A DNA stretch of 64,000 bases from Artemia franciscana (lineage: Eukaryota > Arthropoda > Branchiopoda > Anostraca > Artemiidae), in contig NC_088863.1 in assembly GCF_032884065.1 (NCBI RefSeq), positions 59,972,439 through 60,036,438 on the forward strand. The letters are read 5' to 3'. The notes under the pieces were generated by a model. It was not told where the DNA came from. It did no database searches and saw only the letters and a program-made list of their open reading frames with translations. The number at the start of each line of letters is the position of its first letter. The stretch's first letter is position 1. The position numbers and the translations under genes are program-made. This document shows, in pieces, positions 19,207-55,849 of this stretch.

Positions 19207-19503
19207 CTAAATAAAAAAAACTTGTTTTTTTTACCTGGTAGTAAGGAGCGACATTAAAATTTAAAACGAACAGAAATTATTCCGTATATGAAAGGGGCTT
19301 TTCCTCCTCAACGTCTCACTGTTTGCACTAAAGGTTTTTACTGTTTTAAAAAGTAGAGTTAAGATAAAGAGTCAAACTTTAGCGTAAAGAGCGGGGTGTT
19401 GAGGAGGAAAACCCCCCTTCATATACGGAGCAATTTTGTTCGTTTTAAGTTGTAATGTTGCTCCTTACTTTCAGATGAAAAAAACGTTGTTTTTTTATTT
19501 AAT
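19207..19503. repeat. A1 foldback: about 130-bp arms, 36-bp loop
   Basis: Arm 1 (19207-19337) and arm 2 (19374-19503) are imperfect inverted repeats; each includes GTAAGGAGCGAC or its complement and a TTTAGCGTAAAGAG-type block. The loop at 19338-19373 reads TTACTGTTTTAAAAAGTAGA onward. Relative to the element body this loop is opposite in orientation to those of A2 and A3. Confidence 0.8.
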
Positions 19504-20790
19504 TTCTGAAAGTTTTTGAATTAAAGCATGTTTTGATTTCGGCTCTCCGAACATAAATAATTAAAACGAAATTTGCATATTAATATTTTTTTTGCTAAAT
19601 GGCTTTCTCATAGTTTTAATTCGAAGATGTTGAAAAAAAAGGAGCGGGGGAGGAGGCCTAGTTGTCCTTCAATTTTTAATTACTTAAAAAGGTAGCCAGA
19701 ACCCGTAGAATAAATAGTGAAAATTGCTAAAAATACTTTAGCGTAAAGAGCGATGTATTACGAGGAAGTGAACCCCTTATATGCGTAATAATTCTTGTTC
19801 GTTTTAAGTTCTATTGCTGCTCTTTAATTACTGTTGAACAATTTTTTCATATTTATTTTTTCATTGTTTTTTTTTTTAATATTGCTAAAAAATCTTGCAC
19901 CCCCTTCATTGAAATTCTCTTTCCCCATGACAAATTCCTCCATGGAAAGATCCTCCCACGTAACCCACCTCAACCCTCCTCTAAAAACAAAACAAAACAA
20001 AAAACACCCCTGAAAACGCCTATACACTTCCCAATAACCATTACTATATGTAAACACTGGTAAAAGTTTATAACTTGCAGCCCCTCCGACTTGGACTGTA
20101 GGGGAGTAGGTTGTCCCCAAAGACATAGTTATTAGGTTTTCTGACTAACCTGAATAAAATGGCTATCTGAAAATTTTGATCTCGTGACTTTGAGGGAAAA
20201 ATGAGCGTGGGAGGGGGCCTAGGTGCCCTCCAATTTTTTGGTTACTTAAAAAGGGCATTAGAACTTTTAATTTCCTTTAGAATGAGCCCTCTTGCGAAAT
20301 TCTAGGACCAATGAGTCGATAAGATCACCCCTGGGGAAAAAAACAACAACAAAAAACCACCAAAAAACAAAAAAACCACTTGGTCGATACGATTACCCCT
20401 GGGGAAAAGAAAAAAACAAACAGACAAATAAACACGTATCCGTGATCTTTCTTCTGGCAGAAAATGCGAAATTCCGCATTTTTGTAGACAGGAGCTCGAA
20501 ATTTCTGTAATACGGTCCTCTGATACGCTGAATATTATGGTGAGATTTTCGTTAAGATTGTAAGATTTTTAGGAGGTGTTTCCTCCTATTTTCTAAAATA
20601 AGGCAATTTTTCAGGCTCGTACCTTTTGATGGGCAAAACAAAACATGATGAAACTTATATATTTAAAATCACCATTAAAGTGCGATTCTTTTAATGTAAC
20701 TATTGGTATCAAAATTAAATTTTTTAGAGTTTCGGTTACTATTGACCCGGGTCGCTCCTTACTACAGTTCGTTACCACGAACTGTTTGAT
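19207..20790 (+). mobile_element. Family A element, copy A1
   Basis: Nearly complete copy. From left: a foldback (19207-19503), a middle part with a second weaker copy of the same arm motif near 19735-19830, a body with CCCCTGGGGAAA and ACACGTATCCGTGATC-type blocks, and a terminal small hairpin CAGTTCGTTACCACGAACTG at 20765-20784. No reading frame is conserved with the other copies, so it is non-autonomous. Plus is defined here as foldback end first. Confidence 0.75.
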
Positions 20791-20799
20791 GAATACAAA

Positions 20800-23737
20800 A
20801 CTTATTCTGGGAAAAAAACTACCAAATGGAAAACAAAATTAAACTTTTTTTTGGAATAATTGTCATTATCCATTTTTAGCTTAACCGTAAAGTTAACCAC
20901 GAAAATAGTTTTTTGGAATATTCAGAAGATAGCTTAAAATCCTGCTGTCTTTTTTTTTTAACTCATTTTATTTCTTCAGTGCTAGTGGTTGCCAAAAAGA
21001 AAGTAAACAGAAAGCTATCTATGAGTTCATTTTAAAGTCAACACTTACATGCACATGTTTCGAATACATTTTTCTTGACAGCACCTGCGCACGGTGCCAA
21101 GCGGAAACAAAATAGGACTTCTTACGTTTTGTACTATTGAAATCTCTATGGTAAAAAATTTCTTGACCAAATGCTTAAAATCTTTCGCTTGGATGCAATT
21201 CCCTTTCAGACCCCTTAGTAATTGAGTCAATTTAATAAAAAACGAATTTTGAAAAACAAGCAGCTTAGTGACAAATGTTTTCACTCAAATTCAAATCTTG
21301 TTCAGAATTGATAATAAATACTGTTCACGTTTATCCTAACAATAAAAGCAAAACCCCAAAATACATTTTCGTGAATTCAGCAACAGCTTGAAACCATGAT
21401 ACAGCCTACATTTTTTTTCTGTCTCTCCAGCGCTAGCGGAACACAGGGACATTGCTGGAGCGTTCAAATGTGAAACCATGTGAAGTTTTCACAATTAGAG
21501 CTTTAATTTCATCAAGGTGTGAAGGAATTGATCACTGGCTATGATGCCATCCACAGGTCTGTCATTTGGGAGCAGGGAAAGTGGACTACCCCCTCAATTT
21601 AGACAAGAATTTATTCAAAAATTTATTTAAAACTTTTATTTTTCGTAATGATATAATCTTAATGATCAATTCTTCTAAAATGCTAAAGTTCAAGAAAAAA
21701 AAAATGAAAGTGTATTTTCTTTTTAGGTGCTCAACTTTACACCATTGCAGTAAAAAACTGCAATAATAATAAAAGGATTTTGAGTTTTTTGTAAATCTGC
21801 AACTCCTCAGCTATAATAACAAGGGTAATTTACCTTTCGAACTCTTTATGTGACAAAATTGCAATTTTTTTTAGGGGTAAGTTTAAGAAAAGTAGAGTTG
21901 CTAAGTAAAATCCATGTTTATTGCCCCATAACGAAAAAAAACTCATGTCACTTCTTTAGTTTCTTTACTAAAGCTGGACGGGAAAAGGGAAAACCCTTTT
22001 TTAAGCTCTACTGTACATATCTTAAGTCCCGAAAACGAAGAAAATAAATTGAAAAATTAAATTTTTATGAAAATAAAGAGCGAAGTTGGAACTTAAAATG
22101 AACAAAAATTGTTGCTTCACAGTTTATGCAACACATACATGAAAAACAGGGCTTACTCGAATTTTATTGATAATTAAGAAATATGTCATAAAATTTACTG
22201 ATTTGATGATCAAGATAAGTCTATTGAGAGCCTTAGGGACTTTCGAAAGGGGAGGGACCGGGGCATCGGCTATCTAAGGTTTTTTTATGTTCCTAATTCT
22301 CTTTTGTTGCGTTGGCTGTTGCTCTCAGTAGAGCACTAGTGTTTGAGAATTCAACAAATGTGGGGAAATATCACAAGTTAGTCTATTTGAATCAATTTTT
22401 TAGATATATCTTGCATAAACAGTGAAGCAAATATTTTTGTTTGTTCTAAATTTCAGATCGATCTTTACATTCATATTTTTCTTTCTTTTAATTAATCGGC
22501 ACTTAGAAAGAGGCCGTGAGTGTTTTAAAGGGTTTTGTTGTCATTCGGGTTGCACTAACTAGCTGATGAAATCAAAGCATTAAATCACTTATCATAAATT
22601 ACTAATCATAGCAATACTATAAATTAATAATTATCAGAATTACTTATACAATTAGATAAATTTGTCGCAAGGTCAATAAATGAGCCTAATTAAAAAATTG
22701 CTTTCATCCAGTAGAACTAAGTTACAAATTTGAAAACCTACCGAATTTTTTTGTTTCTTTTTTTGCGCTGTGGGATTGAATATTTTAACAGGAGATTTTT
22801 AATGTACTTCTTTTAAAAATGGAACCGACGATCCTTAGTGTTTTTAATTTCGCTCAATTCAACAAAAAGTTAGTCAAATTGAGTTGTAAAACGATTTGAT
22901 CCAACGACAAGACATTAATAAATAATTATTGTCGAAGTTTTTGATATTTGTGGAATGAGTTCAAATTGACTTTTGGTTTCAATTGTGTTTCTACTAGTCA
23001 TACGGTATTTTAGAAAATTACTTTGCTGGCATCTAGAAGATCTGCTATAGGGTTTTCCATGGCACTAAATAAAGATGTCCACCTGAATGAAAAACATCTT
23101 ATATCTTAAGAAGTCAACGCTTTACTCGTTGGTTAAGGTTTGTGATCCTCATTTTTTTTCTCTGCTTTTTTTGTTCTTGTATAGTCAAGTCAACGTGGCA
23201 AGTTAAAAAATTAAATAATAAAAAAAATCCTAGGTAGACGTAAAAATATCCAATAGGTTTCTCTTGTTCTTGTTCCTCATAGTTATACCAAAGAGAGACC
23301 TAGGCTGGTCTATGGCTTATGAGACTCAAAGTAATTCGTCAAATATTTCAGTGTTGTAGTTGGCTTTATTAACTCACTCTAAAAATACTGAAAGAATCTG
23401 TTTTCCAAACACTTAATCGGTGTATTCTCGATCTCTTGGCACTGCTATTTCAGATGACAGAGCAAAATTTCTCCGAAGTTTCCTTGTTTGACGTGGCTTT
23501 AGTCCCTCTATATTTCGTCCACTTGTTTCAAAATCCATGCATCAACTTGCTTTTGCACCGATTCCCTGGGTGCTTTGTAGACCGAAAATACTTACATACT
23601 TTCAGTTAATTCCGGGGGAAGATTATATTCGATAAGAGTACAAAATCTGGATTAAACCCAGGAGACAAAAGAATTATAAAAAAAAGTATAGATGAAATTA
23701 TTGATAAAGCCATAAAAATCTTGGTCTAATTTAGGGA
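20800..23737. other. Intergenic, nothing identified
   Basis: AT-rich sequence between family A copy A1 and a family C element. Several 60-80-codon chance frames occur without splice sites or recognisable motifs. Confidence 0.35.
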
Positions 23738-23998
23738 CGAAAGTAGGGACGTAAAGCCCTGGGGGGGGGGGGGGGTGAGGTCATTTTCCAAGTCAAGTGA
23801 AAATGACCAAGTGAAAAATGAGCCATATAGTACCATAAAGGCAAGATATACTCATGAAAACTGATCTGTTTCCGTGGATGCTTGAATTAAGTAGGCCTAT
23901 CTCAGTTTTGACAAGATTACATTAAATTTCAGCTAGGGGAAAAACCGGAGTTGGGGCGTAGTTGCCTCCTGCCCTATAAAAAATTAAGCCTCTGGATG
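23738..23998 (+). mobile_element. Family C MITE, copy 4
   Basis: Begins GGGACGTAAAGCCCTGG followed by a G15 run and keeps the family order: ATGAGCCATATAGTACCATA, AAACTGATCTGTTTCCGTGG, GATGCTTGAAT, and a right end near CCTGCCCTATAAAAAATTAAG. Ends are degraded. Confidence 0.55.
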
Positions 23999-24204
23999 AG
24001 AGGGGAGTAAATGGTGTCCAAAATCGAAAGCATCCTTCCTTGTGTATTCGCCTGACCATAAAATGTCAAGATTCAATCAAAGTTTTTGGTGGTAAAAAAG
24101 TTAAAACTTGCAACTTTAGTTTGGCTCCTCATCACCTAGTCAATAGCCTTTGATCTAAGCAAGCTTAAATAATAATCGCAGCTCAAAGGAATACTTTACG
24201 TTGA

Positions 24205-24210
24205 TTTATT
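24205..24210 (-). terminator. Candidate polyadenylation signal for POLR2M
   Basis: AATAAA on the minus strand, about 340 nt beyond the stop codon. The first canonical hexamer I noticed downstream of the last exon. Confidence 0.35.
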
Positions 24211-24551
24211 CTAAGGACCATGATAATTGACGATTGAATTTTGTACAATGGACAGTGTAATAACTCGCTATTTCTTGTTTTTGTAAATTTTTTGTGAGAA
24301 AATTCATGAAGAAATATTTAGCTGTTACATAAATAAAAGGGATCTTGAAGTTAATGGGATCTAAAATAATGAAATGTTATTTGAAATTAACGAGATAATG
24401 ATGATTAATTTCATAAAATTAATGAGATTAATGAAACTAATAAGAAAAATCCAATGTTTGGATATTGAATATATTAGAGGTTTGATCTACAAACAGAAAT
24501 TTTCATTTGTATTCAAAATTCCAAATAAAACCACAAAAATCCATGTTAAAC

Positions 24552-24710
24552 TTATTCTTTAAAGGAGAAAGTCACAGTGCCAGCTTTATCGTCATCTTCA
24601 TCATCGTATACTTCATCATATTCATCTGACCATGACTCGGTCTCTTTTTCAACAACGGGAACACCAGGCCCAAAGCTGATTCGAGCCATAGCTTGCTGCA
24701 TCATCAATTC
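24552..24710 (-). CDS. POLR2M: POLR2M last exon
   Basis: The acceptor CTTATACCTTATAG precedes 24710. The exon is in phase 0 and encodes ELMMQQAMARISFGPGVPVV, then a strongly acidic stretch (SWSDEYDEVYDDEDDD) and GTVTFSFKE before TAA at 24554-24552. Its first residues complete the QQQKYKEL block begun in the previous exon. Confidence 0.85.
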   Translation of the reverse strand, partial: ELMMQQAMARISFGPGVPVVEKETESWSDEYDEVYDDEDDDKAGTVTFSFKE

Positions 24711-33700: not shown

Positions 33701-36700
33701 AGCCCTAGTTGTAGTTGATTATATTTGTTGGAGTATGGTTCAGCGGTATGACTACGCTATCTCAGCCAGAGTCAGCTCGACTCTGTTTGTCGACAGTTTT
33801 GAGATTGTTATTTTTTTTTATGCTTCATGCTTATTCAAATATGTTATGTTTAAGCCTGTTCAAAAAGGCTCTAGAAGTATTATTTACTAGACTATTTGGA
33901 AGTTTAATTTGTATTATTTACATACGCAGGAAATAATTATCCCAAAGATGAAGATCAATGACAAAGAGAGAAAAAGAGGTTATTTGTCATGAGAGGTATT
34001 TTTTCTGACAGATTTGTCCTAGTATGCAGTTTTTTTTAATTTTCTTAAACGATTAAAACGATATTTAGACAAAAATATAGTGTCAACCAAGTCAATAATA
34101 AACATAATAAAATAGGCACAAATACTGGAGCCATAGGATGTGGAAAAACTAGGTACCACTTTATACTAGCAATTTTCGACTTTGAAAAATATTAAAAGCT
34201 TAAACAACTTTAAGCAAGTGATATAAAACAAAATTTGACTTGTATAAGACGAAACAACCGTGCTGATCAGACTAATATAAAATAATTTTTTTTCAAACAG
34301 TTCGTGGTAACGAACTGTAGTACGGAGCGACCCGGCTCAATAGTAACCAAAACTCTATAAAACGAAATTTTGATACCAATAGCTACATCAAAAGAATCAC
34401 ATTTTCATGCTGATTTTAAATATATAAGTTTCATCAAGTTTAGTCTTACCCATCAAAAGTTACGAGCCTGAGAAAATCTGCCCTATTTTAGAAAATAGGG
34501 TGAAACACCCCCTAAAAGTCATAGAATCTTAATGAAAATCATACCATCAGATTCAGCGTATCAGAGAACCCTTTTGTACAAGTTCCAAGATCCTATCTAC
34601 AAAAATGTGGAATTTGTATTTTTTGCCAGAAGACAAATCACGGATGCGTGTTTATTTGTTTTTTTTTTTTCTTTTTCCCAGGGGTGATCGTATCGACCCA
34701 GTGGTCCTAGAATTTTGCGAGAGGGCTCATTCGAACGGAAATGAAAAGTTCTAGTGCCCTTTTCAAGTGACCAAAAAAATCGGAGGACACCTAGGCCCCT
34801 CCCACGCTCATTTTTTTTCTGAGATAGCCATTTTATTCAGCATAGTCGAAAAACCTTATAACTATGTCTTTGGGGACGACTTACTCCCCCACAGTCCCCG
34901 TGGGAGGGGCTGCAAGTTGCAAATTTTGACCAGTGTTTGCATATATTAATGGTTATTGGGAAATGTAGAGACGTTTTCAGGGTTTTTTTTTGGTTGGGAG
35001 GGGGGGGGGGTGAGAAGAGGGGGCTATGTGGGGGAAATTTTCCATGGAGGAATTTTTCAGGTGGGAAGATTTCCATAAAGGGGGCGCAGCATTTTCTAGC
35101 TTTATTTAAAAAATAATGAGGAAATAAATATGAAAAAGTTTTTTTCAACTGGAAGTATGGAGTAGCATTAAAACTTAAAACGAACAGAAAATATTACGCA
35201 TATAAGGGGTTCACCTCCTCCTAATACCTCACTCTTTAAGCCAAAGGATTTTTAGTAATTTCAACTATTTATTCTACGGCCTTTGTGATTCAGGGGACAA
35301 AATTTAAGTTTTAATGCAAAGAGTTATTGACGAGGTATTGACGAGTGGGCGAACCTTCTCATATACGTAATAAAAACATACGAACATAGAAGTTTGTTAC
35401 GTAAGCTAATTTGTAAGTTACGTATATCTTTTACTAATGAAAACGTTCGTAAAAACTAAAAGTTCTAGTTGCCTTTTTAAGCATCCACAAAACTGGAGAG
35501 CAACTGGGCTTCCTTCCCCTCCTTTTTTTCGTAAAATCATTCGATCAAAACTATGGGAAAGCCATTTATCCAAATAAATAAATATGCAAATTTCACTTTA
35601 ATTATTCATCTGCGGAGAGCCGAAATCAAAATATGGATTAACTAAAAAACGTTCAGAAATTAAATAAAATAACAAGTTTTTTTAACTGAAAGTAAGGAGC
35701 GACATTAAAACTTAAAACGAACAGAAATTACCGCGTATATGAAAGGGGCTGCTCCTTCTTCAACGCCCTGCTCTTTACGCTAAAGTTTTTACTGTTTTCA
35801 AAAAGTAGAGTTGAGAGAAAGAGCCAAACTTTAGCGTAAAGAGCAGGGCGTTGAAGAAGGAGCAGCCCCTTTCATATACGGGGTAATTTCTGTTCGTTTT
35901 AAGTTTTAATGTCGCTCCTTACTTTCAGTTAAAAAAACTTGTTTTTTTATTTAATCTTCAGAAGAAATACAGTTGCAAGTAAAATTTCAAGGATCTGAGA
36001 GGAAGAAGAAATCAATACCAAAATCCCCTCTTCCTGCATAGGAATTTTCCACTTAATGTAGCTGCTGCCCCAGGTGATGTAGCAAAACTTCCTAAACCAA
36101 ATCCAGTTTTTTTTTTCCGTGGTGAGCTCTTTTCCATAGGCAGGTGCTACTTTAACCAGTAAATGTAAATTTGCAGCATAATCATTTTTGTCTTACAGAA
36201 AAAATATGTTAGGTCTTTTCAGTGGTAAGCTGGGGTAGAGGTAGCTTATCAAAACAGTTGTATCCCGAAATGTCAAATATACATGCCATTAACTCTTTTC
36301 CTAGCGTAATCGTTTTAGCAAGCAATTGCCACACTGTTGTCCTGTATTGATGCAGAAACTATCATGCCATCTACATTACTTTGTTAATTTTAGTGAGCCC
36401 AGAAACCAGCAATAGTAGTCAATCTAGATTATTTTTAGGGGTTACCTCAAACAAATTGCAAAAGTTTTGATTTTGGTATCATTTGAACCGGAAAAATATT
36501 TTCTACAGGATGTTTGAAATCAGCCAAAATCGGTCGAGGCCAAATTGACTGTTTTTCGTCTTTTCTTCTAAAATCACGATTCACGATTTTTTAAAAACGA
36601 CTTAATTTGCTAGTATAATAAGTCGGTAATAGGTAAATCCTGTACGTAGATCGCAAATATGCACCTTTTTTTGAACACTCAAGTTAAAAAATCCAAACCC

Positions 36701-39700: not shown

Positions 39701-42700
39701 TCCATTCAACAGATTGTACTTCTTCTTCAAGAGTAGTTCTGGGACCAATCGTCAGTTTTTCAAGTAGAGAGCCAACTGTTGAATCAACTGTTCCGTTTTT
39801 CTTCCCTATTAGTTCCGTGATTCTCTTCACGGACTCCCTCACTTTCTCTCCTTTATCAGGTAAAGAATTCACAAGTGTCCTATAAAAATGATATTTTTCA
39901 GACTGTGTAAATTAAAGCTGAATAGAAATTAATTTAAAAAAAAATTCCACAAAAGAAGTTTTTCAAAGAAAAGTACAAAGCTACATTAAACTAAAAATGA
40001 GCAGAAATGAAGTCAATTAATACTTTCAAGCGTAAAATTAGGCTACCATAAATAATCATCAACAAATAAATGAAACATAAAACGAGCATAAATTACAATA
40101 AACTTCCGATTCAAACTCAAAACGAGGCAAAATTAAGAGGAGTAGACTAGGGCTTACTTCGACAGTGCCTTCAAACACCAGAACTTAATCTGAAGGTTCA
40201 TAGTATCAAAAGAAAAGTTTCACAATATGTTTTAAGGGAGTGTCGAACATATTTAAACCACACTATATGCATGCTGGCAGTCAAGGTGGCGCGACAGTAA
40301 CATCTCTGAAACCACTCATGGCAGAGCTGTTCCTAGGATTGGTGGCACCCGAGGAAAAACTAATTACACCACTCCCCTCCTGACTCAAAAATAAGCAAAA
40401 CAACTGAATCAAAGTGAGAAATTTGATCAAAATGGGCAGTCTCTTTGCCACGGTGCCCAGGAGAGCTTTCCCCAGTCGCCCCTCCCCCTTTTAAACAGTT
40501 CTGGCCGATGGTATTATATTGACATTTTCACAGTGTGTTGAAAAGTGATCAGAAGGTAACCAGGCCATGCGCCCTTTTTAGCCCCCCACCCAAAAAAACA
40601 CGAGAAAAATCTTGAAACAGCTATTTTGTTCAAAATAATCTAAAGGTATTTTGAACAAAATAGCTGTTTCAAGATGCCCCTGAGGATGTCTTGAACCCCC
40701 CCCCCCAGCCCATGGGGTAAGAGCTATAAATTTATGCAAGAGGCCCATTGTTTCATGGTGCTAGGTGTCCCTCCTAGGAAAATTCTCCAGTATATAAAAT
40801 TGAGCAGCCGCAGAGAAAGTATAAAATAGATGCCTCGAAATGTCGATCAGATGTCCTAAGGGGTAAGCAATGACCAGACTGTCAGTTAAAAAAAAAAAAA
40901 AAAAAAAAAAAAAACAGCTAGCCGCTTTCAGTAAGATAATAATAATAATAATGATAAAAAAAATTAGTGGAATCAAACAGTTCATCACATTTTCTGAGCA
41001 AAAATATGAATGAAAGATGAACCCAGATCAGTAGGCAACGATAACAAAGCGTAGCGTTAATAAAGGGATCATAAGGCTTAAATATTATCTTTTATTAGTA
41101 TTTTACAAGAGGCACTTCATTTAGAAGGGATGGTTGTTTAAATTTCAGAGGGGGCTCATTCGATTGGATATAGGAAATTCTAGTGCTCCTTTTAGGAGTC
41201 AAAAGTGATTGGAAAGCAGGCAGTCACCTCATTTGTATAAATTTTAGATGGTGCTCATTTGATTGGATATCAGAAGTTGTAGTGCTCTTTTGTAAGTCAA
41301 CAGTGATTGGAGGGCAACTTGCCCCCCTCAGAAAAGCCCCTTTCCCCTCAAATGCATCTGATCAAAAATTTTGAGACATCTATTTTGTTCCAGATATTCC
41401 AAAAGCCAAATAAACATGCCTCCAGGGCTGACAGGCCTCCCACAGCCCCCGGGACAAAGGGCTGTAAGTTACCTAAGTTATCAATTGTTATAAAATATAG
41501 TTTTTACAAAAGGGCTGTCGTATGAGCTTTCAAGAGGCTCATTCAACAGGGAATCAAAAAGTTCTACTGCTTCCCATAAGGGTCAAAAGTGATATGAGGG
41601 CAGCAAGGCCTCATGTGCCTTTTCCCAAATGCATCCGATCCAAATTTTGATATTGCCATTTTGCTCAAAATAGTCTAAAGGTCAACCAACTATGCCTCCG
41701 GAATTGCCCACCCACCAAACCTTCCCAAATGCATCCGATTGAAATTTTGAGATAACCATTCAGTTCAAAATAGGTCTAAGATCAAATAGCTATGCTTCCG
41801 GGGTTAACAAAACCCCGGGACAAGGGCTGTACGTTATGTAAGTTGCCAACTGCTGAAATATATGGTTTCTATGGAAAAAATGTCACATGGACTTTGGAGG
41901 GGGTTCATTTTTCTGAAAATCAAAAGTTATAGAGCCCCTATGAAGGGTTGAAAAAGATTAGCGAAAGAGAAAAGAGATAGAGAAAGCTGAAAAAGAGGGT
42001 AACCGGCCCCCACACCTTTTTACCCGTAAATGCATCCGATCAAAATTTTGAGATTGACTTTGAGTTCGGAATTGTCCAAAAGTCAAACAACTATGCCTCC
42101 ACGATTGACACCCTTTCCCCCAGGTCCTGGAGCAAGGGCTGTAAGCTATACGAGTTGCCCATCGTCAACACATAAGCTTTTGGAATAGGAGTCGTATAAA
42201 CATTGGAAGAGGTTCATTCGATTGGAAATAGAAAGCTCTATTGCCCGTTTGAAAATTCAAAAGTGACTGGAGGATTACCATCTCCCACTCCCTTTTCGCC
42301 CCACATAAATCTGATGAAAGTTTTGAGATAACCATTTTATTCAAAATAGTCCAAAGATCCAATAGTTCAAAGGTTTTTATGAAAGGACTGGCCACAAGAA
42401 CTTTAGAGGAAATCAAAAGTTCTAGCGTCCCTTTTAAAAGTCAAGTGTTGGAAGGGCAACCGGCCACGCTCGCACAATAGTTCAAAGGTTTTTATGAAAG
42501 GACTGGTCACATGAACTTTAGAGGGGCTAATTCAACAAGAAATTAAAAATTCTAGTACCCTTTTAAGGGATCAAAAGTGATCAGAGGACAGAGTATCCCC
42601 AAATGAATCTGATCAAAATTTTTATATTTCTATTTTATTCAAAATAGTCCAAATTTCAAATGAATATACCACCAGGTTAACAAGCCCCTCCCCCAGCCCA

Positions 42701-44645
42701 AGGACAGGGGCTGTAAGTAACACATTTTGCCCAACGTTAACACATGAAGTTTTGATGGAAGGGACAGTCGTATAAAATTAAGGGGCTCATTCGATTGGAA
42801 ATCAAAAGTTCTAGCGCCCTTTTTCACAAGTCAAGTGTTGGAAGGGCAGCCGGCCACGCTCGCACAATAGTTCAAAGGTTTTTATGAAAGGACTGGTCAC
42901 ATGAACTTTAGAGGGGCTAATTCAACAAGAAATTAAAAATTCTAGTACCCTTTTAAGGGATCAAAAGTGATCAGAGGACAGAGTATCCCCAAATGAATCT
43001 GATCAAAATTTTTATATTTCTATTTTATTCAAAATAGTCCAAATTTCAAATGACTATACCACCAGGTTAACGAGCCCCTCCCCCAGCCCAAGGACAGGGG
43101 CTGTAAGTAACACATTTTGCCCAACGTTAACACATGAAGTTTTGATGGAAGGGACAGTCGTATAAAATTAAGGGGCTCATTCGATTGGAAATCAAAAGTT
43201 CTAGCGCCCTTTTTCACAAGTCAAGTGTTGGAAGGGCAGCCGGCCACGCTCGCACAATAGTTCAAAGGTTTTTATGAAAGGACTGGCCACATGAACTTTA
43301 GAGGGGCTAATTCAACTAGATATTAAAAATTCTAGTACCCTTTTAAGGGGTCAAAAGTGATCAGAGGACAGAGGTCCCCAAATGTATCCGATCAAAATTT
43401 TTAGATTTCTATTTTATTCAAAATAGTCCAAATTTCAAATGACTATACCACCAGGTTCACAAGCCCCTTCCCCAGCTCTAGGACAGGGGCTGTAAGTTAC
43501 ACATTTTGCCCAACGTTAACACATGAAGTTTTGATAGAAGGGGCAGTCGTATAAACTTAAGGGGTTCATTCGATTGGAAATCAAAAGTTCTAGCGCCCTT
43601 TTTAAAAGTCAAGTGTTGGAAGGGCAGCCGGCCACGCACGCCATTTTCCCCCAACAAATACAACCAATCAATATTTCGTGATAGTCAGTTTGTTCAAAAT
43701 AGTACAGAGGTAAAGTAGCTATGCCTTCGGGGTTGAAAACTTCCACCCCTGGAGATGGTCTGTAATTCATACAAGTTGCCCATTGTTAACATATAAGGTA
43801 TTAAGTAAGGATTGATCATACAAACTTTGGAGGCGGCTCATTCGATTACAAATCGAAAGTTCTAGTGCCGTTACTAAGAGTAAAAAAATATCAGAGGGTA
43901 ACCAGCCCCAAGCATATTGGTTGGGCCTTTTGAATTATGATGAAGCAAATAGCTATTAACAGATTTTCTTTGGAGGACTTTGGGGAAAAAGAGGAACGGG
44001 AAGAGGGCTAGTTGTCCTCCAATCTCTTTGGTCACTTAAACTTTTGACTTTATTCGAATGATCCCTCTCCTAATCTTCGATGATTCTTGGTTCGATACGA
44101 TCATCACCCAAGTTTGTCCGTAAGACGGACCCACGATATCTCAACATCAGCTACAAGCATTAAGCTAAAACTTTCAGGCCGAGTTGAACTAAACCAAAAG
44201 ACACTATTTGCATCCACGGTTCTCAAAAGAGTGCATCTGCGACAATTCAGGAACGGTAAAGGGAATTAAAGGAAACGGCAATAATCGACTAATATTTTTG
44301 TATTCAAATATCGCAACATGGTGCAGGCCAAAATGAATTCAACCCTACAGCAGTCGATATTTCTAATCCATTTACTTAATAAAATTCCCCATACACATTT
44401 AGCTGGAGTTCTTTAGAACAACTAGCATTAATGTTGGTTGCAAAAAAAAATTTCAAATATATAAAAATCTCACCATCTATAAACTTTTACCGGGATAGTT
44501 AAGAAAAAGGCTTTAAAAGTAATGTTTTGTAATCGTTCTAATTATTAACAATCACAAAACAAAAACCACATACTTTTGAGCACATTTTGGACTTCAAATT
44601 GCTTCAAGAGAACTTTTGCTTTGTCAGCTCTGGCAGAAATGGTAT
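24552..44645 (-). CDS. POLR2M: POLR2M / Gdown1 RNA polymerase II subunit (gene span, first exon not found)
   Basis: Five minus-strand exons (44645-44574, 39879-39580, 32469-32323, 28213-28033, 24710-24552) give about 285 residues; human POLR2M is about 370. Recognition rests on NSLPDKGEKV at the start of the second exon (human KLPDKGKKI), preceded by a LLKQFEVQNVLK helix at the same spacing as human MLKRQERLLRN. It also rests on LSLEEALILEKSQQQKYKEL (human IEESLALQKQQKQNYEEM) and an acidic SWSDEYDEV tail (human DDDWSSDEF). Gdown1 binds Pol II tightly, competes with TFIIF and makes transcription Mediator-dependent. All junctions are in phase except the first, which is one base short. The introns carry several transposon remnants. 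The N-terminal exon should lie at higher coordinates. Confidence 0.8.
26410..27430. mobile_element. Non-autonomous DNA element with about 40-bp terminal inverted repeats
   Basis: The left end ATTATTGTGTTGCGAGAGCA and the reverse complement of the right end (ATTATTTGCTTGTGTTTGCT) continue into matching CAACAC.TTTG and GTGTTTC blocks. Each end also has an internal mini-palindrome (GTGTTGC-GAGA-GCAACAC on the left; GTGTTGCT-TTAGT-AGCAAACAC on the right). Three short frames inside (60-77 codons) resemble no transposase that I know. Lies in the last intron of POLR2M. Confidence 0.5.
27685..27978 (+). pseudogene. Non-LTR retrotransposon 3' end, plus strand
   Basis: Encodes the C-terminal tail of a reverse transcriptase: LGHVLWMKHHSLPKIVLFGQ, then KRIAGCPRLGREDIERKDLR and EAFIRMVWTRSVRSCVGLRW, ending at TAG. 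Two in-frame TAG codons stand where TGG (Trp) is usual. The 3' end is GTTAGTAGTAGTAGTATT, a TAG-repeat tail also present in the 29-kb fragment. It lies antisense to POLR2M in its last intron. Confidence 0.75.
28033..28213 (-). CDS. POLR2M: POLR2M exon with LEEAL..QQQKYK block
   Basis: The acceptor AATTTCTTCCAG precedes 28213 and the donor TACAAG|GTTCGT follows 28033. The 181-nt exon encodes NLKSAYVPQNESDTEKSKPS, a SWRED segment, and GGVALSLEEALILEKSQQQK, which aligns with the human C-terminal Pol II-binding region. Confidence 0.85.
28974..29615 (-). pseudogene. Non-LTR retrotransposon 3' end, minus strand
   Basis: Same family as 27685-27978, in the opposite orientation. Minus-strand frames read GSIISKDGRCEEVE near 29560, GSETWVLWKKEEDLLDVFQ near 29400, an open stretch LGTHLNCPFPNTKLYKKHG to TEWLKWLGHFLRMKDDILPK (29375-29073), and then a decayed end closing with GTTAGTACTTAGTAGTAGTG. 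The stops and frame changes make it inactive. It lies in an intron of POLR2M in the sense orientation. Confidence 0.75.
30430..30665. repeat. Dispersed repeat family E, copy 1
   Basis: Shares CATGAGGTTAAGGACATAA-like, TCTACTAAA, GATTAGATC(T/C)ACA and GCACA..AAAGCATT.TAATGT blocks in the same order with 33325-33545. No coding potential. Confidence 0.65.
30670..32320. other. Intronic, nothing identified
   Basis: AT-rich intron of POLR2M. Overlapping chance frames at 31470-31890 on both strands have no recognisable motif. Confidence 0.35.
32323..32469 (-). CDS. POLR2M: POLR2M coiled-coil exon
   Basis: The acceptor TTTTTTCACAACAAG precedes 32469 and the donor CCCCACAG|GTAATT follows 32323. The 147-nt exon, phase 2 in and phase 2 out, encodes EEKPLISKEEVARLENMSLK and a Lys/Glu-rich helical stretch (ELKKRADALEKQKLRKKF), likely coiled coil. 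Confidence 0.8.
32585..33300. repeat. Dispersed repeat family D, copy 1, with tRNA-like head
   Basis: Homologous to 33555-34165. Contains a tRNA-like segment at about 32690-32765 with an A-box-like TGAGTGGTTGGCACG and a B-box-like AGTTCGAGTCTT. Later blocks shared by both copies include TACAAAAAGGCTGTAGAAG, GGGAAGTTTATT and GAAGAGAGTCACAAAAGG-like sequence. May be a SINE or a tandemly duplicated composite. Confidence 0.55.
33325..33545. repeat. Dispersed repeat family E, copy 2
   Basis: Aligns with 30430-30665 in the same orientation; see that entry for shared blocks. Here it separates the two family D copies, so an E+D composite may be the true unit. Confidence 0.65.
33555..34165. repeat. 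Dispersed repeat family D, copy 2
   Basis: Begins with CTCTGCATATATATACATAC (compare CGCTGCATATGCATACATAC at 32622) and carries the tRNA-like TAGCCAAGTGGCTGGTACGC at 33658. It then follows the order of copy 1 and ends with ACTAGGTACCACTTTAT against ACTAGATACCCTTTTT in copy 1. Confidence 0.55.
34290..35958 (-). mobile_element. Family A element, copy A2
   Basis: Complete copy, inverted relative to A1. The small hairpin CAGTTCGTGGTAACGAACTG is at 34298-34317, followed by GTAGTACGGAGCGACCCGG. The body carries ACCCAGTGGTCC and GGGGACGACTTACTCC-type blocks, an inner weaker hairpin spans about 35160-35370, and the large foldback lies at 35661-35953. No conserved ORF. Confidence 0.8.
35661..35953. 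repeat. A2 foldback: near-perfect 128-bp arms
   Basis: Arm 1 (35661-35788) and arm 2 (35826-35953) are almost exact reverse complements. Both arms share the copy-specific variant GGGGCTGCTCCTTCTTCAAC, which differs from the other copies. The loop (35789-35825) reads TTACTGTTTTCAAAAAGTAG onward. Confidence 0.85.
35960..39579. other. Intronic, nothing identified
   Basis: Largest stretch of the window without a feature, within a POLR2M intron. I found no recognisable coding block or repeat family. Some GC-richer sequence at 37050-37760 may be an old element that I cannot classify. Confidence 0.3.
39580..39879 (-). CDS. POLR2M: POLR2M exon with LPDKGEK motif
   Basis: The acceptor CATTTTTATAG precedes 39879 and the donor AAAAGAG|GTAGTT follows 39580. 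The 300-nt exon encodes TLVNSLPDKGEKVRESVKRI at its start, matching the human N-terminal KLPDKGKKI region. It continues with GSLLEKLTIGPRTTLEEEVQ and an acidic DSDDDSDTDEKN stretch. A GTG-initiated frame seen here is simply the exon's own reading frame and not a start. Confidence 0.85.
40610..40674. repeat. Perfect 28-bp inverted repeat with 9-nt loop
   Basis: Bases 40610-40637 and 40647-40674 are exact reverse complements (TCTTGAAACAGCTATTTTGT onward), with the loop ATCTAAAGG. It lies inside a monomer of the tandem array and would fold into a pre-miRNA-sized hairpin if transcribed. Confidence 0.9.
40887..40914. repeat. Poly(A) run of about 28 bases
   Basis: Uninterrupted A homopolymer followed shortly by an ATA/ATG-type triplet run near 40937-40957. 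It could be the tail of an old retroposed sequence, but nothing recognisable precedes it. Confidence 0.8.
42421..43650. repeat. Three near-identical 389-390 bp tandem units plus partial
   Basis: TCTAGCG(T/C)CC at 42421 recurs at 42810, 43200 and 43589. Units 1-3 are nearly identical, including the block GGAAGGGCA(A/G)CCGGCCACGC. Their reverse strand gives repeated 61-62-codon frames that are by-products of the repeat. This is the homogenised core of the larger diverged array. Confidence 0.9.
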
Positions 44646-46190: not shown

Positions 46191-46199
46191 TAAAGTTGA

Positions 46200-47500: not shown

Positions 47501-47521
47501 ATTTTATTATCTACGTTCTAG

Positions 47522-48215: not shown

Positions 48216-48394
48216 ATACACACATCCCCACCCCTTTTTTGGACTTAGAAGTTCTGAATAAGTGCTATGTTAACAAAAAACATAATGAAGTATTCAATAG
48301 AATGGATTCAAAGCATTCATTTTTATTTCTATTTTGATGTTCTAAATGTCGTTATTTCAATACAAATATTTTAAGCATTATTTTGTTGTGGTTC

Positions 48395-48958
48395 CATTAT
48401 TTTTAGGGTATGCTAGCAGCTCAAACGTTTAGAATGTTTATTAAAAAGTCGGAGGTGCAAGGAAAGGAATTTTCAGAGACATAGGCACTACTGGCGGGCT
48501 CATGGGGGGGGGGGTTTATTTGAATCTGAGAAAGGTTAACATTATTTTTAGGGTATGCTAGCAGCTCAAACGTTTGGAATGTTTATTAAAAAGTCGGAGG
48601 TGCAAGAAAAGGAATTTTCAGAGACATAGACACTACTAGCGGGCTCGTGGGGGTATATTAGAATCTGAGATAGGTTAACATTATGTTTAGGGTATGCTAG
48701 CAACTCAAACCTTCAGAATGTTTATTAAAAAGTCGGAGGTGTAAGAAAAGGAACTTTCAGAGACATAAACACTACTAGCGGCTTCGTGGGGGTATATTAG
48801 AATCTGAGTTACGTTAACATTATTTTTACGGTATGCTAGCAACTCAAAGGTTTAGAATGTTTATTAAAAAGATGGAGGCGCAAGAAAAGGAATTTTCAGA
48901 GACATAGACTCTTCTAGTGGGCTCGTGGGGGTATATTCAAATCTGAGATAGGTTAACT
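48395..48958. repeat. Four-unit tandem repeat, 139-145 bp
   Basis: Units start at CATTATTTTTAGGGTATGC-like sequence at 48395, 48540, 48679 and 48818. Each carries AAAGTCGGAGGTGCAAG, GGAATTTTCAGAGACATA and a G-run of differing length. They are well conserved, so expansion was fairly recent. An (AG)n microsatellite follows within 60 bp. Confidence 0.9.
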
Positions 48959-49013
48959 GGGCCTTTACCAAAGTTACAAACACACATTCAGACACACAAA
49001 CACGTAGACAGGC

Positions 49014-49095
<82 letters not shown>
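49014..49095. repeat. (AG)n microsatellite, about 82 bp
   Basis: Perfect AG dinucleotide run. Frames rich in Ser/Leu or Arg/Glu across it are artefacts. Confidence 0.95.
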
Positions 49096-49098
<3 letters not shown>

Positions 49099-49844
49099 TC
49101 TTTTTAACGATTGCTACTGAGGTGGCAACCAGTTGAACCGGAGAAGAAACCTGCGCTTCACATATCACGTCCAAACCGAGGCAATAGAACTTGGAATGGA
49201 AACACCTACCCTCCCCTGAGAATTTTAAGGGCTTAGTCTCTCTCCCAGCGCAAAACCATGGCATGGGTATTTCGGAATAGGCATGGTGTTTTTTCTGTTG
49301 GCTTCATGGAACGAAGAACAACTATCAACGCGGAAGCATACTGCATAACCCTCAGAAAGCTCCACAGAACGGAAAAAAAAAGAACAGCTAGGTATGCTGA
49401 CAAAGGAAACTGTCCTTCGTGACAATGCAAGAACTCACACAGCTGGTCAGACCCGCAATTTGTTGGACAGTTTTGGCTAAGAAGTTTTACTACACCCACA
49501 ATACAGTCCTGATCTTGCACCGAGTGATTACCATCCGATTCTCTACCTCAGGCAGCACTTCAGCGGCAACCATTACAATGATAGTATTGACGTAAAAACT
49601 GAAGTGAATTCCTGGTTACCGGGACAGGCGGCAAGTTTTTATACTGAGGTTACTTAGAATTAGTTGAGAGGTGTGATAACTATTACATCAAACTTTGCAA
49701 CTATGCTGTTAAATAGAGTAAAGTATATACTTTTTGAAAATAAATTTGCTTTCTTGAAATAATCTTTCGTTGAGTACTTATGCTCAAACGGACCTTAAAA
49801 CACTCCTCATACATCAGAAGACTCATCTTATTATACTGATTTCA

Positions 49845-50885
49845 AATCTATATGATTCATCAAGTTTAGTGTTACCATCAAAAGTTACGAGCCAGAGAAA
49901 ATTTGCACGATTTTTTAAAAAGGGGGAAAACAACCCCTAAAAGCCCGTGCATCTGAATAAAAATCACACCATCAGATTCAGCGTAAATTTTCAGTTATTT
50001 TGTTCAGCGTATTTGAAACATCCAATAACTATGTCTTTCGGTATAACATGGCTCCCCACAACCCTTGGGGAGAGGCCTGTATGTTAAGAAACTTGCCCAT
50101 CGGATAGTACTTGTTATTGGAAAGCATACAGGTATTTTTCAGAGGAGTGTCGTTTCTTCGGGTAGGTTTCCATAGGGAAAAATTTTCCGCGGAGAGGAAG
50201 AATTTTTCGGGGATTAAGTTTCCAGGGAAAATCTTTATACTGGAGGTATTAGGCAGAATTCATATAAATTTTTTTTTGTTTCCATTACTTCCTCTTTGCC
50301 AGCTTACTCTTACATGTGGAGATGTTCCGGAGGAATTACCTGGATGCTATTTTCAGTGTTTTTAGAGTTCCGAGAGAAAATTCCCATGGAAGGGAGGGGT
50401 GTGTGTGGAATGATCGAAATAAATTTAGAAATTAAAATCTTTTTCAAATGAAAGTATGTTAAGGAGAATTCTTCAGATTGAATCGTCTGAAACGAATCGT
50501 TCTTCAGGTTGAGATTTTATGGTGGGGGATGGGAAGAATTTCCGCAACGATTGAATTGTCCGGAAGGAATTTTACAGGGGAATCGAATTTTACATGGGAA
50601 GGGGGCGTATTTTACGTGGGAGGAACTTTCCATGGGGGATTTTTTTATGAGGGGAGAAACTTTTCATGAAAGGTGAGCCAAATTTTTTCAACTGAAAGTA
50701 AGGAGTAAAACCCCTCTTCACTACCTCGCTCTTTACGCTAAAGTTTTACCTTTTGTCCCAATTCTTTAAGAATAACTCGAGCGAGGTAATGAAGAGGGGA
50801 CAATCCTCTCATATACGGAATAATTTCTGTTCGTTTTAAATTTTAATGTTGTTCCTTACTTTTAATTGAAAAAAACTAATCTTTT
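49845..50885 (-). mobile_element. Family A element, copy A4 (internally deleted)
   Basis: Begins without the small terminal hairpin, at GATTCATCAAGTTTAGTGTT. It keeps the CATCAAAAGTTACGAGCC and ACCATCAGATTCAGCGTA blocks, then jumps to a foldback at about 50685-50885. Its loop (TACCTTTTGTCCCAATTC onward) resembles the inner hairpin loop of A3 near 54850, not the outer loop, so a deletion has joined the two hairpins. Confidence 0.6.
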
Positions 50886-50889
50886 TATT

Positions 50890-51630
50890 TAATAGATACA
50901 TAGCACCCTGGGCAACGAGGATCAACCATGGAAGATTGACATAGGAATTCAATGAGCAACACATTCTTCCACACATATATCTGTCGCAGAAAGATGGTAA
51001 AACCGTCATTTCATTAAAAGTTCAGAGGATGATTAAATGGCTAAATTTTATGACTCAGTTTTTGGTAGCAATATTTGTTTACAGTGAAGTTAGGTATGAA
51101 GCAGCTGGATTTTCAGTATGAAATAAGAGTCGAGTCTTATAGTATAAGTGAGGATTCCATTCTGCCAACCACTTAGTTTTGTTTCAAAACCTGAGTATTT
51201 GATCAAATTACTCACTTGGCCATCTTACTACAATACCACCATTTTGGCTTCTTAAGAAGTTATTCAGCTTAAGTACATCTTTTATGTAGCTTAAACTGAA
51301 TAAATAAATTTCCACATTTGAACAAAACTAATAGCTCTAGTCCAGTGTCAAATTTCTCCATGAATAATTCCAATTTAGGGGCACACGCTGATAATCTATT
51401 TAGATAATGAATACTGGGCATAACAACAACAAAATATGCCAAAATAGACGTATTACTACTAGAAATATTATTCCATCATTTTGTATTTTACCTCCTGAGG
51501 CTGAGATCTACAACTAAAAATTCTAACTAACTTTTTCTTTGTTGCGAGTTCAGGAAGTCACAGCTCGAAAACCATACAAAAAGGAAAACAAGAAAACTGA
51601 AATTCTTTTCCTACAAACATCTTTGCTCTA
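50890..51630. other. Intergenic, nothing identified
   Basis: AT-rich sequence with no supported feature. Confidence 0.35.
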
Positions 51631-51634
51631 AAAG

Positions 51635-52505
51635 TAATAATAATAATTTTATTTTTGCCTGCTTATACAAAAAAGAGAAAAGCGGAGTAATACATTAGAA
51701 GAAAAGGAAAAAAACAAAAACATTCTGCATCAAAGAACAAAATTAAGTAATAATATCTTCATTCGCACTCGTAGATCGTACATTTTAAATTGTTCATTTT
51801 CGTGGTTGACAGACTTTGTTCATGGCTTTTCTGACGGCTGGACAGATCAGCATATAGCTTGGATGATCGTTCTTTCCATTAGGACAGAGGGCACACTCGA
51901 CATTTTTCGATTGAAATGGTGTTTCCTTTGTCGATCCATGGGTCCTGCACAACGGGGACAGAAAGGTAGATTGCTGCAGTCTCGAGCCAGATGTTCAAAA
52001 GACTGGCACCTTTTCGGGATTTCTTTGAACGTCGTTACTTTGAGGCTAGTGTATTCAACATAGATATCTTGCGGGATAGCCCTGTCACGTGATGATGCAT
52101 CTGCAAAAACAAGTCGAACTATCTGTGAAGTGTCATATCTTTTAGCTTCTATGACATGGGGGTTACATGCTATTATCCCTTCTGAGGTAGTACCTAACGA
52201 GACGAATTTTCCAACAGCCATGAGTTTTCTCTCTGGTATTTCACTTTAATGTCAGACATCTTAGATAACGACTCGCTTAGGGATTGGGGAGCTGAGCCCG
52301 TTTTGATATGAACCACTAGGCCAGACTTTGTCTGTTGAATCTTCTGCACATGCTCAGGGTTTATAAACTCCTCGATAAACTCTTTATGATTTGAACAAGA
52401 CTTAGTCTTTCCCGGGACTAGACCACTAATGAACACCCGATTGAGCGGTTTATCGGTTGTAGGAGTGGGGGCCATTCGGAAGTCTGGGGTAGAGCAACTT
52501 TGCAT
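51635..52505 (-). mobile_element. ORF1-only non-LTR retrotransposon
   Basis: An ORF1 (52505-51794) is followed by only about 150 bp of 3' sequence with an AATAAA near 51650, then an ATT-repeat tail (51650-51636). Neither an endonuclease nor an RT ORF lies between ORF1 and the tail, so this is either a deleted copy or an ORF1-only derivative comparable to mammalian HAL1 elements. The 5' boundary is uncertain. Confidence 0.5.
51794..52505 (-). pseudogene. Non-LTR ORF1p (Gag-like) with two frameshifts
   Basis: Starts at ATG 52505 (an in-frame TGA lies two codons upstream) and stops at TGA 51796-51794. Adding one base at each of two A-runs gives 238 codons including the stop. The N-terminal half (RVFISGLVPG, then IKTGSAPQSLSESLSKMSDI) resembles the RNA-recognition-like part of arthropod Jockey/I-type ORF1 proteins. 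The C-terminal half has a knuckle-like CQSFEHLARDC with its first Cys replaced, then FCPRC, and a CALCPNGKNDHPSYMLIC knuckle. Frame breaks lie near 52207-52210 and 51903-51907. It would bind RNA/DNA in a retrotransposon RNP if intact. Confidence 0.65.
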
Positions 52506-53194
52506 TGGTCAATCATTATTTCTAGCTAGCTTTTCGACACACCCATTTATGCAGACTGTCATGGATGTGATCACATCCAGCGGGATACGGGGATTTCAGT
52601 GATTTTCAATATCATGAACCTGATTTTATACTTACTTACTGTAAACTTACTGGTATTGAGTATATCGCTGAGCAGCATATCACGGCCAATTTGAGACCTT
52701 CTTTATTTAGCCAGATTTTCATTATATGTATTCACAATATTATTCAGCTCATCATGGGCTTCACAAATTTGTTCACGAACAAAGAACTCGACATCACTGC
52801 TGATTACTGAATTTTTCGTAATATCCTGATGCCTCAAGCATGTTTCAACGAAGTTTAATACTGACAAATAATGTACCGATTAATTGCCATTACCGACAAA
52901 TCTTGCAAGTAAATCTGAAATCACCAAAGAACAAGGGAAGTGTCAGGACCCCCTTACCTATTCTCCACAGGTTAATCGCAATTTACAGCAGAGCCTGCCT
53001 TTAAAACGAAAATAAAAAACTGCCCCCTTTAATCATGCTGAAGTTTTCAAGAAATTATTTGTAAGGAGTAAACTATTTCCTATTTTGATAAAAACTGCAC
53101 ATTTCAGATCAGACACCCTGAAGCATTTTATGCACTATATATTTCTGCTAGACTCATGAGCTTGGTATGCTACATATATATATATAAATAACTG

Positions 53195-53345
53195 CAGACA
53201 ATGTGAGCCTCTTTTTGATGTCATGGCGTCACCATAGGTTCGATACAACAGCCCTGGATAAATACGACTAACTGCAGATACTGTGATCTTCTTCTTGATG
53301 TCATGGCTTCAGGTTAGGCTTGATGCAAGCACTCTGGGAAAAATA
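53195..53345 (+). repeat. Family F repeat, two tandem units
   Basis: AACTGCAGACAATGTGAGCC followed by TTGATGTCATGGCGTCAC, repeated at once as AACTGCAGATACTGTGATC and TTGATGTCATGGCTTCAGG. The same blocks recur at 55850-56245. Confidence 0.65.
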
Positions 53346-54212
53346 ACAATAGTCATATAGTTCTAGCAAAAAAATATTTTAAATAAACTGAGAGTAGTTC
53401 GCTTAAAGCGATAACCTGTATGTATATTCGTTATTCTAATGTTTTAAACCGGGAGGTGTCAAATAAGTTAAAACGATTGAATTAAGAAAGTTTGGCGTGA
53501 ACTCACTTCCTCCTTCCTGTTAATGCCAGCAACAATCATCCATTCCATGCCCTTTGCTTTAGCTTTTTGGATATGTCTTGTCGTATTTGATAGTCCAGGT
53601 TGTTGGACAAAAATTTCTTCTTGTTCTTCAAACGACGTATGATTTTCAACCATTGTCAGTAAAATCATGTCCTGTTGTACCTTGCCTAAGCAAATGGACT
53701 CAAATTAGATATAGTGCCAATGTAAAATTACAACTCTTTTTTCTTAGTGTTTTGGCTACTGCTGGTCTGATCTCTACGTCTTTTAGTGCTGGATGCGGTT
53801 TTATCAGCTGCTTCAAATTTGGTATTGGATTTTGATTACTCTAGACAAGCTTTCAATGTCCTTTACTTTAGCTGCCCGTATTGGTCTTGTCCCATTCGAT
53901 TTTCCAAGTTGTTGATTTTCGCACATCGTGTTAAACTACTCCAGTTCTTCTCTTCGACTTATCACGTTTGATAGTTTATATGGTTCTGAAAAATCAGCAT
54001 GTATATAGCAATTGTAAAGATTCGTTTTATGGGTCATCCCTAGGCATATATTTTATACTTATGTAACTGCTTGCTTTCAAAAATCGACTGATAGATCTCC
54101 CTAGACAACGGAAGTTTTTATGTTATGAATGACGTCTGCATATTACATCATTCAACGATATAATATGAATGCAGCCGGGCTCCGCAGTGCTACACTGTAG
54201 GCTTGTATATAT

Positions 54213-54505
54213 TAAATAAAATACAAGTTTTTTGTAACAGAAAGTAAGGAGCGACATTAAAAACTTAAAACGAATGGATATTACTCTGTATATGAAAGGG
54301 GCTTTTCCTCCTCCACGCCTCGCTCTTTACGCTGAAGTTTGACTCTTTCTCTTAACTCTACTTTTTAAAACAGTAAAAAATTTTAGCGTAAAGAGCGGGG
54401 TGTTGAGGAGTAAAACCCCTTCCATATACGGAGTAACTTCTGCCCGTTTTAAGTTTTAATGTCGCTCCTTACTTTCTGTTAAAAAAGCTTGTTTTTTTTT
54501 ATTCT
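54213..54505. repeat. A3 foldback with inverted loop
   Basis: Arms 54213-54340 and 54378-54505. The loop 54341-54377 reads GACTCTTTCTCTTAACTCTA onward, which is the reverse complement of the A1 loop although both elements point the same way. Confidence 0.8.
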
Positions 54506-55835
54506 ATTTCTGAACATTTTTGAATTAATACATATTTCGATTTTGGCTCTCCGCACATAAATAATTAAAACGAAATTTGCATATTAATTTTTTTTGGCTA
54601 AATGGCTTTCTCATAGTATTAATCGGAAGATTTTGAGAAAAAAGGAGCGGGGGAAGAGGCTTAGTTGCCCTCCAATTTTTGAATTACTTAAAGAGCAACT
54701 AGAACTTTAATTTTATACGAACATTTTCATTAGTAAAAAATATACGTAACTTACGAATTAAATTACGTAACGATCTTCTATATTCGTATGTTTTTATTAC
54801 GTATATGAGGGGTTCAGCCCCTCGTCAATACCTCGCTCTTTACACTAAAGCTTAAATTTTGTCCCAATCCCTTAAGAATGACCCCTGAATCACAAAGGCC
54901 GTAGAATAAATAGTTGAAATTATACTAAAAATACTTTAGCGTAAAGAACGTATTACGAGGAGGTGAGCCCCTCATATTCGTAATAATTTCCGTTTGTTTT
55001 AAGTTTTAATGCTGCTCTTTACTTTCAGTTGAAAAAACTTTTCATATTTATTTTTTCATTGCGCCCCCTTCATTGAAATTCTCTTCCCCCGTGACAAATT
55101 TCTCCATGGAAAGATCCTCCCACGTAACCCCTCTCGACTTCTCCCCCCTCCCACAAAACCAAAAAAATCCCCCTGAAAACGTCTGTACACTTCCCAATAA
55201 CCATTACTATATGTAAACACTGGTCAAAGTTTGTAACTTGCAGCCCCTACCACGGGGACTATGGGAGAGTAAGTTGTCCCCAAAGACATAGTTGTTAGGT
55301 TTTTCGACTATGGTGAATAAAATAGCTATCTCAGATTTTTCATCCGCTGACTTTGGGGAATACATGAGCGTGGGAGAGGGCATAGGTGCCCTCCGATTTT
55401 TATGGTCACTTAAAAAGGGCACTAGAACTCTTAATTTCCGTCAGAATGAGCCCTCTTGCAACATTCTAGCACCACTAGGTCGATACAATCACCCCTGGAA
55501 AAAAAAAACAACAACAAACAAACAAACAAATAAACACGCACCCGTGATCGGTCTTCTGGCAAAAAATACGAATATCCACATTTTTGTAGATAGGAGCTTG
55601 AAAGTTCTACAGTGGGATTCTCAGATACGCTAAATGAAATGGTGTGATTTTCGTTAAGATTCTATGACCTTTAGGGGGTGTTTTCCCCTGTAAAATAAGG
55701 CAAATTTTCTCAGGCTCGTAACTTTTGATGGGTAAGACTAAACTTGATGGAACTTATATATTTAAAATAAGCATTAAAAGTCAATTCTTTTGATGTAACT
55801 ATTGGTATCAAAACTCCATTTTACCACGAACTGTT
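54213..55835 (+). mobile_element. Family A element, copy A3
   Basis: Foldback at 54213-54505, then an inner hairpin region (about 54760-55020), then the body (CCCAAAGACATAGTTGTTAG and CACGCACCCGTGATC-type blocks). It ends at CCACGAACTGTTTGATAA, having lost half of the small terminal hairpin and the adjacent GGGTCGCTCC by deletion. Same orientation as A1. The loop of its outer foldback is inverted compared with A1. No conserved ORF. Confidence 0.8.
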
Positions 55836-55849
55836 TGATAAATTGATTC

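Follow-up and report, generated by a model that had tools for sequence, protein, structure and literature searches.

Can the loop of a long palindrome turn around relative to the element that carries it, and if so, how often and by what process? The question arises from a 64,000-nucleotide stretch of the Artemia franciscana genome, hereafter the window (C1:59972439-60036438 of NC_088863.1, in a genome of 1.27 Gb), which contains three copies of a non-coding element, family A. The left arm of a palindrome of about 300 bp ends at the 5' terminus of the element, and a loop of about 35 nucleotides separates arms of about 140 bp (Table 1). Copies A1 and A3 point in the same direction, and their loops are mutually reverse-complementary, as a first-pass annotation of the window had stated: the A1 loop matches the reverse complement of the A3 loop at 38 of 39 aligned positions, whereas the alignment in direct orientation is poor. 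We refer to the loop as it reads in A3 as the F state and to the loop as it reads in A1 as the R state. Direct reading also bears out that the inverted copy A2, once oriented, shows the A3 state, and the arm length of 128 bp given by the annotation is about right, with arm alignments spanning 138 to 167 columns. Its description of three near-complete copies needs two corrections: the body of A1 is short by about 210 bp that A2 and A3 both keep, and A3 lacks, by our reading of the sequence, about 50 bp of its 3' end, among them the subterminal repeat and one half of the short hairpin. When folded as single-stranded DNA, the foldbacks of A1 and A3 have z scores of -14.1 and -16.9 relative to shuffled sequences, with 0 of 200 and 0 of 100 shuffles, respectively, being equally stable.

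Table 1. Family A copies and their component features in the window (positions are those of the window)
Feature	Positions	Strand	Basis
Copy A1, R state; body deletion of ~210 bp near 19702	19207..20789	+	boundaries set by comparison with other copies' termini
A1 terminal foldback (5' palindrome); arms aligned over 167 columns, 78% identity	19207..19502	+	direct reading, folding, arm alignment
A1 loop, R state	19339..19373	+	direct reading, loop alignment
A1 3' hairpin CAGTTCGTTACCACGAACTG, followed by TTTGA	20765..20784	+	direct reading
Copy A2, F state	34293..35954	-	direct reading
A2 terminal foldback; arms aligned over 138 columns, 97% identity	35657..35954	-	direct reading, arm alignment
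A2 loop, F state	35791..35825	-	direct reading
A2 3' hairpin	34298..34317	-	
Copy A3, F state; half of the 3' hairpin gone	54212..55838	+	direct reading
A3 terminal foldback; arms aligned over 144 columns, 82% identity	54212..54507	+	direct reading, folding, arm alignment
A3 loop, F state	54341..54374	+	direct reading, loop alignment
A3 second, decayed internal foldback of related sequence, arms 63% alike	54790..55053	+	alignment

The decayed internal foldback of A3 is also present in A2, and A1 retains half of it. Comparison of the window with Rfam gave no matches at the gathering score. Elsewhere in the window, positions 50612-50893 hold a family A fragment consisting of foldback sequence, and a tandem array at 42408-43641 (390-bp units, 3.2 copies, 96% matches) has short matches to the family A body; two further tandem arrays lie at 5174-6284 (3.9 units of 278 bp) and 48395-48957 (4.0 units of 139 bp). 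On the minus strand at 60395-60994, an open frame of 199 codons contains a predicted Psq helix-turn-helix (PF05225, E value of 1.7e-11) as well as a Tc5-type DNA-binding match just below the cut-off, and this frame is probably the start of a pogo/Tigger-type transposase.

Orientation of the loop was counted across the genome by pattern matching, with each loop scored against an anchor in the body about 200 bp away. This yielded 2603 copies in the F state and 1447 in the R state (0 in the control for each), which are lower bounds because the patterns need exact letters, and 11 places with head-to-head copies contribute to both totals. A1 is therefore far from being the only inverted copy, and the outcome named in the first-pass annotation as refuting its idea did not arise. 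Two subsets are informative about lineages: a separate pattern recovered 209 R copies with F-type arms, and the loop signature of the main R subfamily occurs in 1019 R and 56 F places. Among 100 listed copies of the former subset (of the 209), 13 on four chromosomes share the arm TTGAGAAGGAAAAG, all in the R state, and 10 of the 56 F places of the latter share GAAGGGAAAAGCC, although 7 of these 10 fall within 83 kb and may be local duplicates. Flipped lineages have gone on to multiply, and both states therefore seem able to transpose.

To relate loop state to descent, we used 129 loci, of which 117 were read and 12 lacked a readable foldback (one locus, L069, repeats L042). On the tree built from the right arm and body of the 117 copies, at least 28 changes of state are required, 7 of them forced by starred branches; on the body-only tree, comprising 98 of these copies, the minimum is 26 (bootstrap range, 26 to 29), with 15 forced by starred branches. 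Minority-state copies were deliberately oversampled, such that these counts represent minima and not rates. Copies with opposite states can be nearly identical, as in the pair L041 (R) and L091 (F), which are separated by a tree distance of 0.006. The loop of the family A palindrome has been inverted many independent times, and both states are found in multi-copy lineages. State is nonetheless clustered on both trees, with fewer changes than in shuffled assignments, and on the body-only tree, the nearest neighbor is in the same state for 59 of the 98 copies. The genome counts and the 98-copy tree together establish that inversion of the loop relative to the body, as initially proposed from the window, is real and recurrent.

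Whether a loop flips in place was approached in two ways. None of six pairs of duplicated loci differ in state, but the summed tree distance of the pairs is only about 0.15 and, thus, too little to decide the matter. Fresher arms, looked for in 17 flipped relative to 20 unflipped copies, were not seen (arm divergence of 4.2% versus 4.8%, P = 0.58; one R copy in the comparison, L039, is probably misplaced, its body divergence being 0.51), and this equality speaks weakly against recent in-place flips accompanied by homogenization of the arms.

The extent of the turned segment can be read from a marker that lies a few bases outside the loop and differs between the arms in the main R subfamily. 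Scored in 41 copies with the loop signature of this subfamily (20 F and 21 R, with L089, L096, L040, L063, and L044 uninformative), the marker switches sides between R and F copies and agrees with the loop in all 18 informative F copies and all 18 informative R copies; the left arm of L066 was read by eye, and L097, L100, and L103, which are among the 18 F copies, carry the body of another subfamily. Moreover, in one copy (L024), the inner foldback of the R subfamily is turned together with both asymmetric arm sites. The marker and L024 thus indicate that the turned segment reaches into the arms, which are too alike for the outer switch points of simple flips to be placed. In the R subfamily, each of two marker haplotypes is found in the F as well as the R state, which by itself, with no tree, requires more than one flip.

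Divergence between the two arms was compared in 84 of 111 copies, after six near-duplicates had been dropped. Arms of the same copy differ on average by 5.7%, compared with 9.8% for left-left, 8.4% for right-right, and 9.1% for left-right comparisons between copies. This difference comes from outside the main R subfamily (47 copies; 6.5% within versus 8.7 to 11.6% between copies), whereas inside it (37 copies), divergence within a copy is no lower than that between copies (4.6% versus 4.6 to 5.2%). Over all 84 copies, only 15 have their own right arm as the closest or joint-closest arm. Arm coevolution is, accordingly, clear between subfamilies but not within the young main R subfamily. At paired arm positions in 24 R-subfamily copies, both arms carry an identical change in 21 cases (12 of which fall at two positions) and different changes in 7, alongside 192 changes on one arm only, of which 34 are at two marker sites and 49 derive from a misaligned copy (L052).

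Two recombinant copies share the body and right arm of a second subfamily, GAGAAGG. In L103, the outer left arm is also of the GAGAAGG type, but further in, the left arm and the loop match the R subfamily in inverted orientation. The change-over falls within the left arm, between the markers at alignment columns 27 and 36; this is the one copy in which a switch point within an arm could be placed. In L097, the left arm is of the R subfamily and the loop is inverted. These copies show that exchange between copies through the arms has happened.

What kind of element carries this palindrome? The 5' end of family A reads TTAAATAAA, and at the 3' end, the hairpin CAGTTCGTTACCACGAACTG precedes a terminal TTTGA. 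The base to its left is A in 87% of 83 copies, and the base to its right is T at 80% of 54 right ends; that is, family A inserts between A and T. A target-site duplication was sought in 32 copies that have both ends, and there was no excess of matching flanks. The preference at the target is one-sided, with pyrimidines and T at positions -12 to -8 and A at -1 in the 83 5' flanks and only the T at +1 on the other side. A 15-bp sequence, GTAGTAAGGAGCGAC, occurs in inverted orientation near both ends of A1, has a gapped match in A2, and is gone from the 3' end of A3. One copy (L028) adjoins another head to tail. The canonical Helitrons (Helitron1) start with TC and end with CTRR, and family A has neither of these ends.

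The layout of family A instead resembles that described for non-autonomous Helitron2-like elements, which have asymmetric inverted repeats near both ends and terminal hairpins (PMC5148889). Family A possesses asymmetric subterminal inverted repeats (in A1 and, gapped, in A2), hairpins at both termini with the 3' repeat situated some 20 to 40 bp before the end, and a fixed target with no detected duplication, and judging from these termini, it is a non-autonomous element of the Helitron2-like (rolling-circle) type. The Helitron2/Helentron-derived HINE and DINE elements are comparable in their asymmetric near-end inverted repeats, hairpins at both termini, lack of coding capacity, and lack of a detected target duplication, but family A has other end letters, a 300-bp palindrome as its 5' end, and an A/T target in place of the sites given for those elements (PMC5148889).

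Helitrons make up 8.81% of the A. franciscana genome (PMC11492255). The Helitron1 type, which is abundant there, shares with family A the A/T target and a hairpin near the 3' end. Among 150 scored of 7434 Rep candidates, copies of a Helitron Rep (L129) are very abundant and near-identical and have long open frames. The single 2-kb 3' flank that we read for L129 ends, by our reading, in a different, GC-rich hairpin followed by CTAG, unlike the TTAAATAAA start and TTTGA end of family A, and that one flank speaks against this abundant Helitron as the mobilizer of family A. The same 150 candidates and single flank yielded no Rep-helicase partner with family A ends (TTAAATAAA and CAGTTCGTTACCACGAACTGTTTGA).

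The inner arms turn with the loop, and the arms coevolve in part of the family. We attribute both the inversion and the homogenization of arms to a single process, either template switching or gene conversion or crossing-over between the arms of the palindrome, and assign this explanation a probability of roughly 0.62. The palindrome would be copied during chromosomal replication, during repair, or when a second strand is synthesized on a single-stranded transposition intermediate, whose arms would pair immediately. A nascent strand could then switch to the opposite arm, or to the arm of another copy, copy through the loop from the wrong side, and then return to its first template inside the arms. 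The same marks would be left by gene conversion or crossing-over between the arms, which is counted within this explanation. Published work describes template switching between inverted-repeat arms that homogenizes the arms and inverts the spacers, repeatedly and reversibly (PMC8604942), and loop inversions have been reported in hairpins (PMC8794818). Family A displays the same recurrent spacer inversion, as evident on both trees and from near-identical bodies with opposite states, along with arm homogenization outside, though not inside, the main R subfamily. The published cases involve short hairpins in yeast genes and RNA genes, and the spacer inversions lie between much shorter arms (PMC8604942, PMC8794818), whereas in the thousands of copies of family A, the arms measure about 140 bp and the loop about 35 nucleotides. 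Several observations, besides this difference in arm length, count against such a process: within the main R subfamily, the two arms of a copy resemble each other no more than they resemble arms elsewhere; over all 84 copies, the own right arm is rarely the nearest; flipped copies do not have fresher arms; no duplicated pair differs in state; and the outer switch points of simple flips cannot be placed.

Of the two mechanisms offered in the first-pass annotation, exchange between the arms gains support from the marker that moves with the loop, from coevolution of the arms outside the main R subfamily, and from the patches exchanged between copies, whereas terminal-hairpin resolution as an obligatory step does not survive. 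Parvoviral termini are terminal palindromes whose inner part exists in two orientations (flip and flop), a likeness to family A, which differs in having no virus genes and in its bias. Obligatory resolution of this kind predicts a ratio of about 1:1 within each subfamily, and it is rejected because the main R subfamily stands at 1019 R to 56 F. We consider it unlikely, though deserving of attention, that resolution instead occurs in a minority of cycles, with a closed or self-primed hairpin end of a transposition intermediate being nicked and copied such that the whole palindrome turns and one arm is rewritten. The position of the palindrome at the very 5' terminus and the coevolution of the arms agree with such a process, as do 11 strict head-to-head places in which two bodies flank one common foldback (e.g., G000 at C1:17688580-17688968) and two copies (L070 and L095) that, by our reading, have an inverted body to the left of the foldback. 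Turning of a whole palindrome does not, however, yield the switch point inside the arm and the foreign loop of L103. The internal foldback appears in its normal orientation 110 times and flipped 0 times, as occasional resolution at the terminus would have it, but these are pattern counts in which the gap range of the flipped pattern was estimated, and the arms of the internal foldback are only 63 to 71% alike, so that its position and the quality of its arms are indistinguishable as the cause of its stability.

It is also conceivable, although rather improbable, that no single molecule ever flips and that the two states are old subfamilies whose foldbacks are swapped between bodies by ectopic gene conversion. 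Foldback segments have moved between subfamilies in L097 and L103, and possibly in L100, and the clustering of state on the trees, with changes below those of shuffles, is in keeping with this. But two marker haplotypes of the R subfamily each exist in both states and near-identical bodies differ in state; furthermore, a swap in register preserves orientation, and pairing with the wrong arm is an inversion, which this account would need anyway. We rate as very improbable an assembly artifact in which some loops were misoriented through polishing with short reads or the collapse of repeats. Pilon was used for short-read polishing of this assembly (PMC11492255), a procedure that would see loop orientation poorly across arms of 130 bp, but PacBio reads also went into it (PMC11492255). 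State follows descent, all six duplicated-locus pairs being in agreement; the arm TTGAGAAGGAAAAG recurs together with the R state in 13 of the 100 listed places on four chromosomes; and loop and inner-arm marker are concordant in all 36 informative copies. As read from the assembly, the spread of flipped lineages across chromosomes, the concordance of duplicated loci, and the linked marker argue against random loop errors. With these alternatives considered, template switching or gene conversion between the arms remains our preferred account of the inversions.

Foldback elements such as FB and Galileo contain long inverted repeats and are prone to rearrangement. In those elements, the repeats frame the element, whereas family A has one palindrome at one end, and a target duplication was not found. 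Among the titles and abstracts listed by searches of open-licence papers, none concerned the family A element.

Inversion of a spacer between inverted-repeat arms is already known from short hairpins. Family A adds about 4000 scorable copies in which the loop can be read, the arms bear markers, and the body is suited to phylogeny. It thereby serves as a natural census of the frequency with which the loop of a long palindrome is inverted, and it links a general mutational process to the way in which a transposon maintains its terminal hairpin. A more speculative view, which we regard as doubtful, is that the 300-bp palindrome is the working replication end of a rolling-circle transposon, whose single-stranded intermediate would fold at this end and prime its own synthesis in some cycles; such self-priming would rewrite one arm from the other, turn the loop, and at times yield head-to-head dimers. 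If true, family A would represent a rolling-circle element of eukaryotes that occasionally has a hairpin end like that of parvoviruses.
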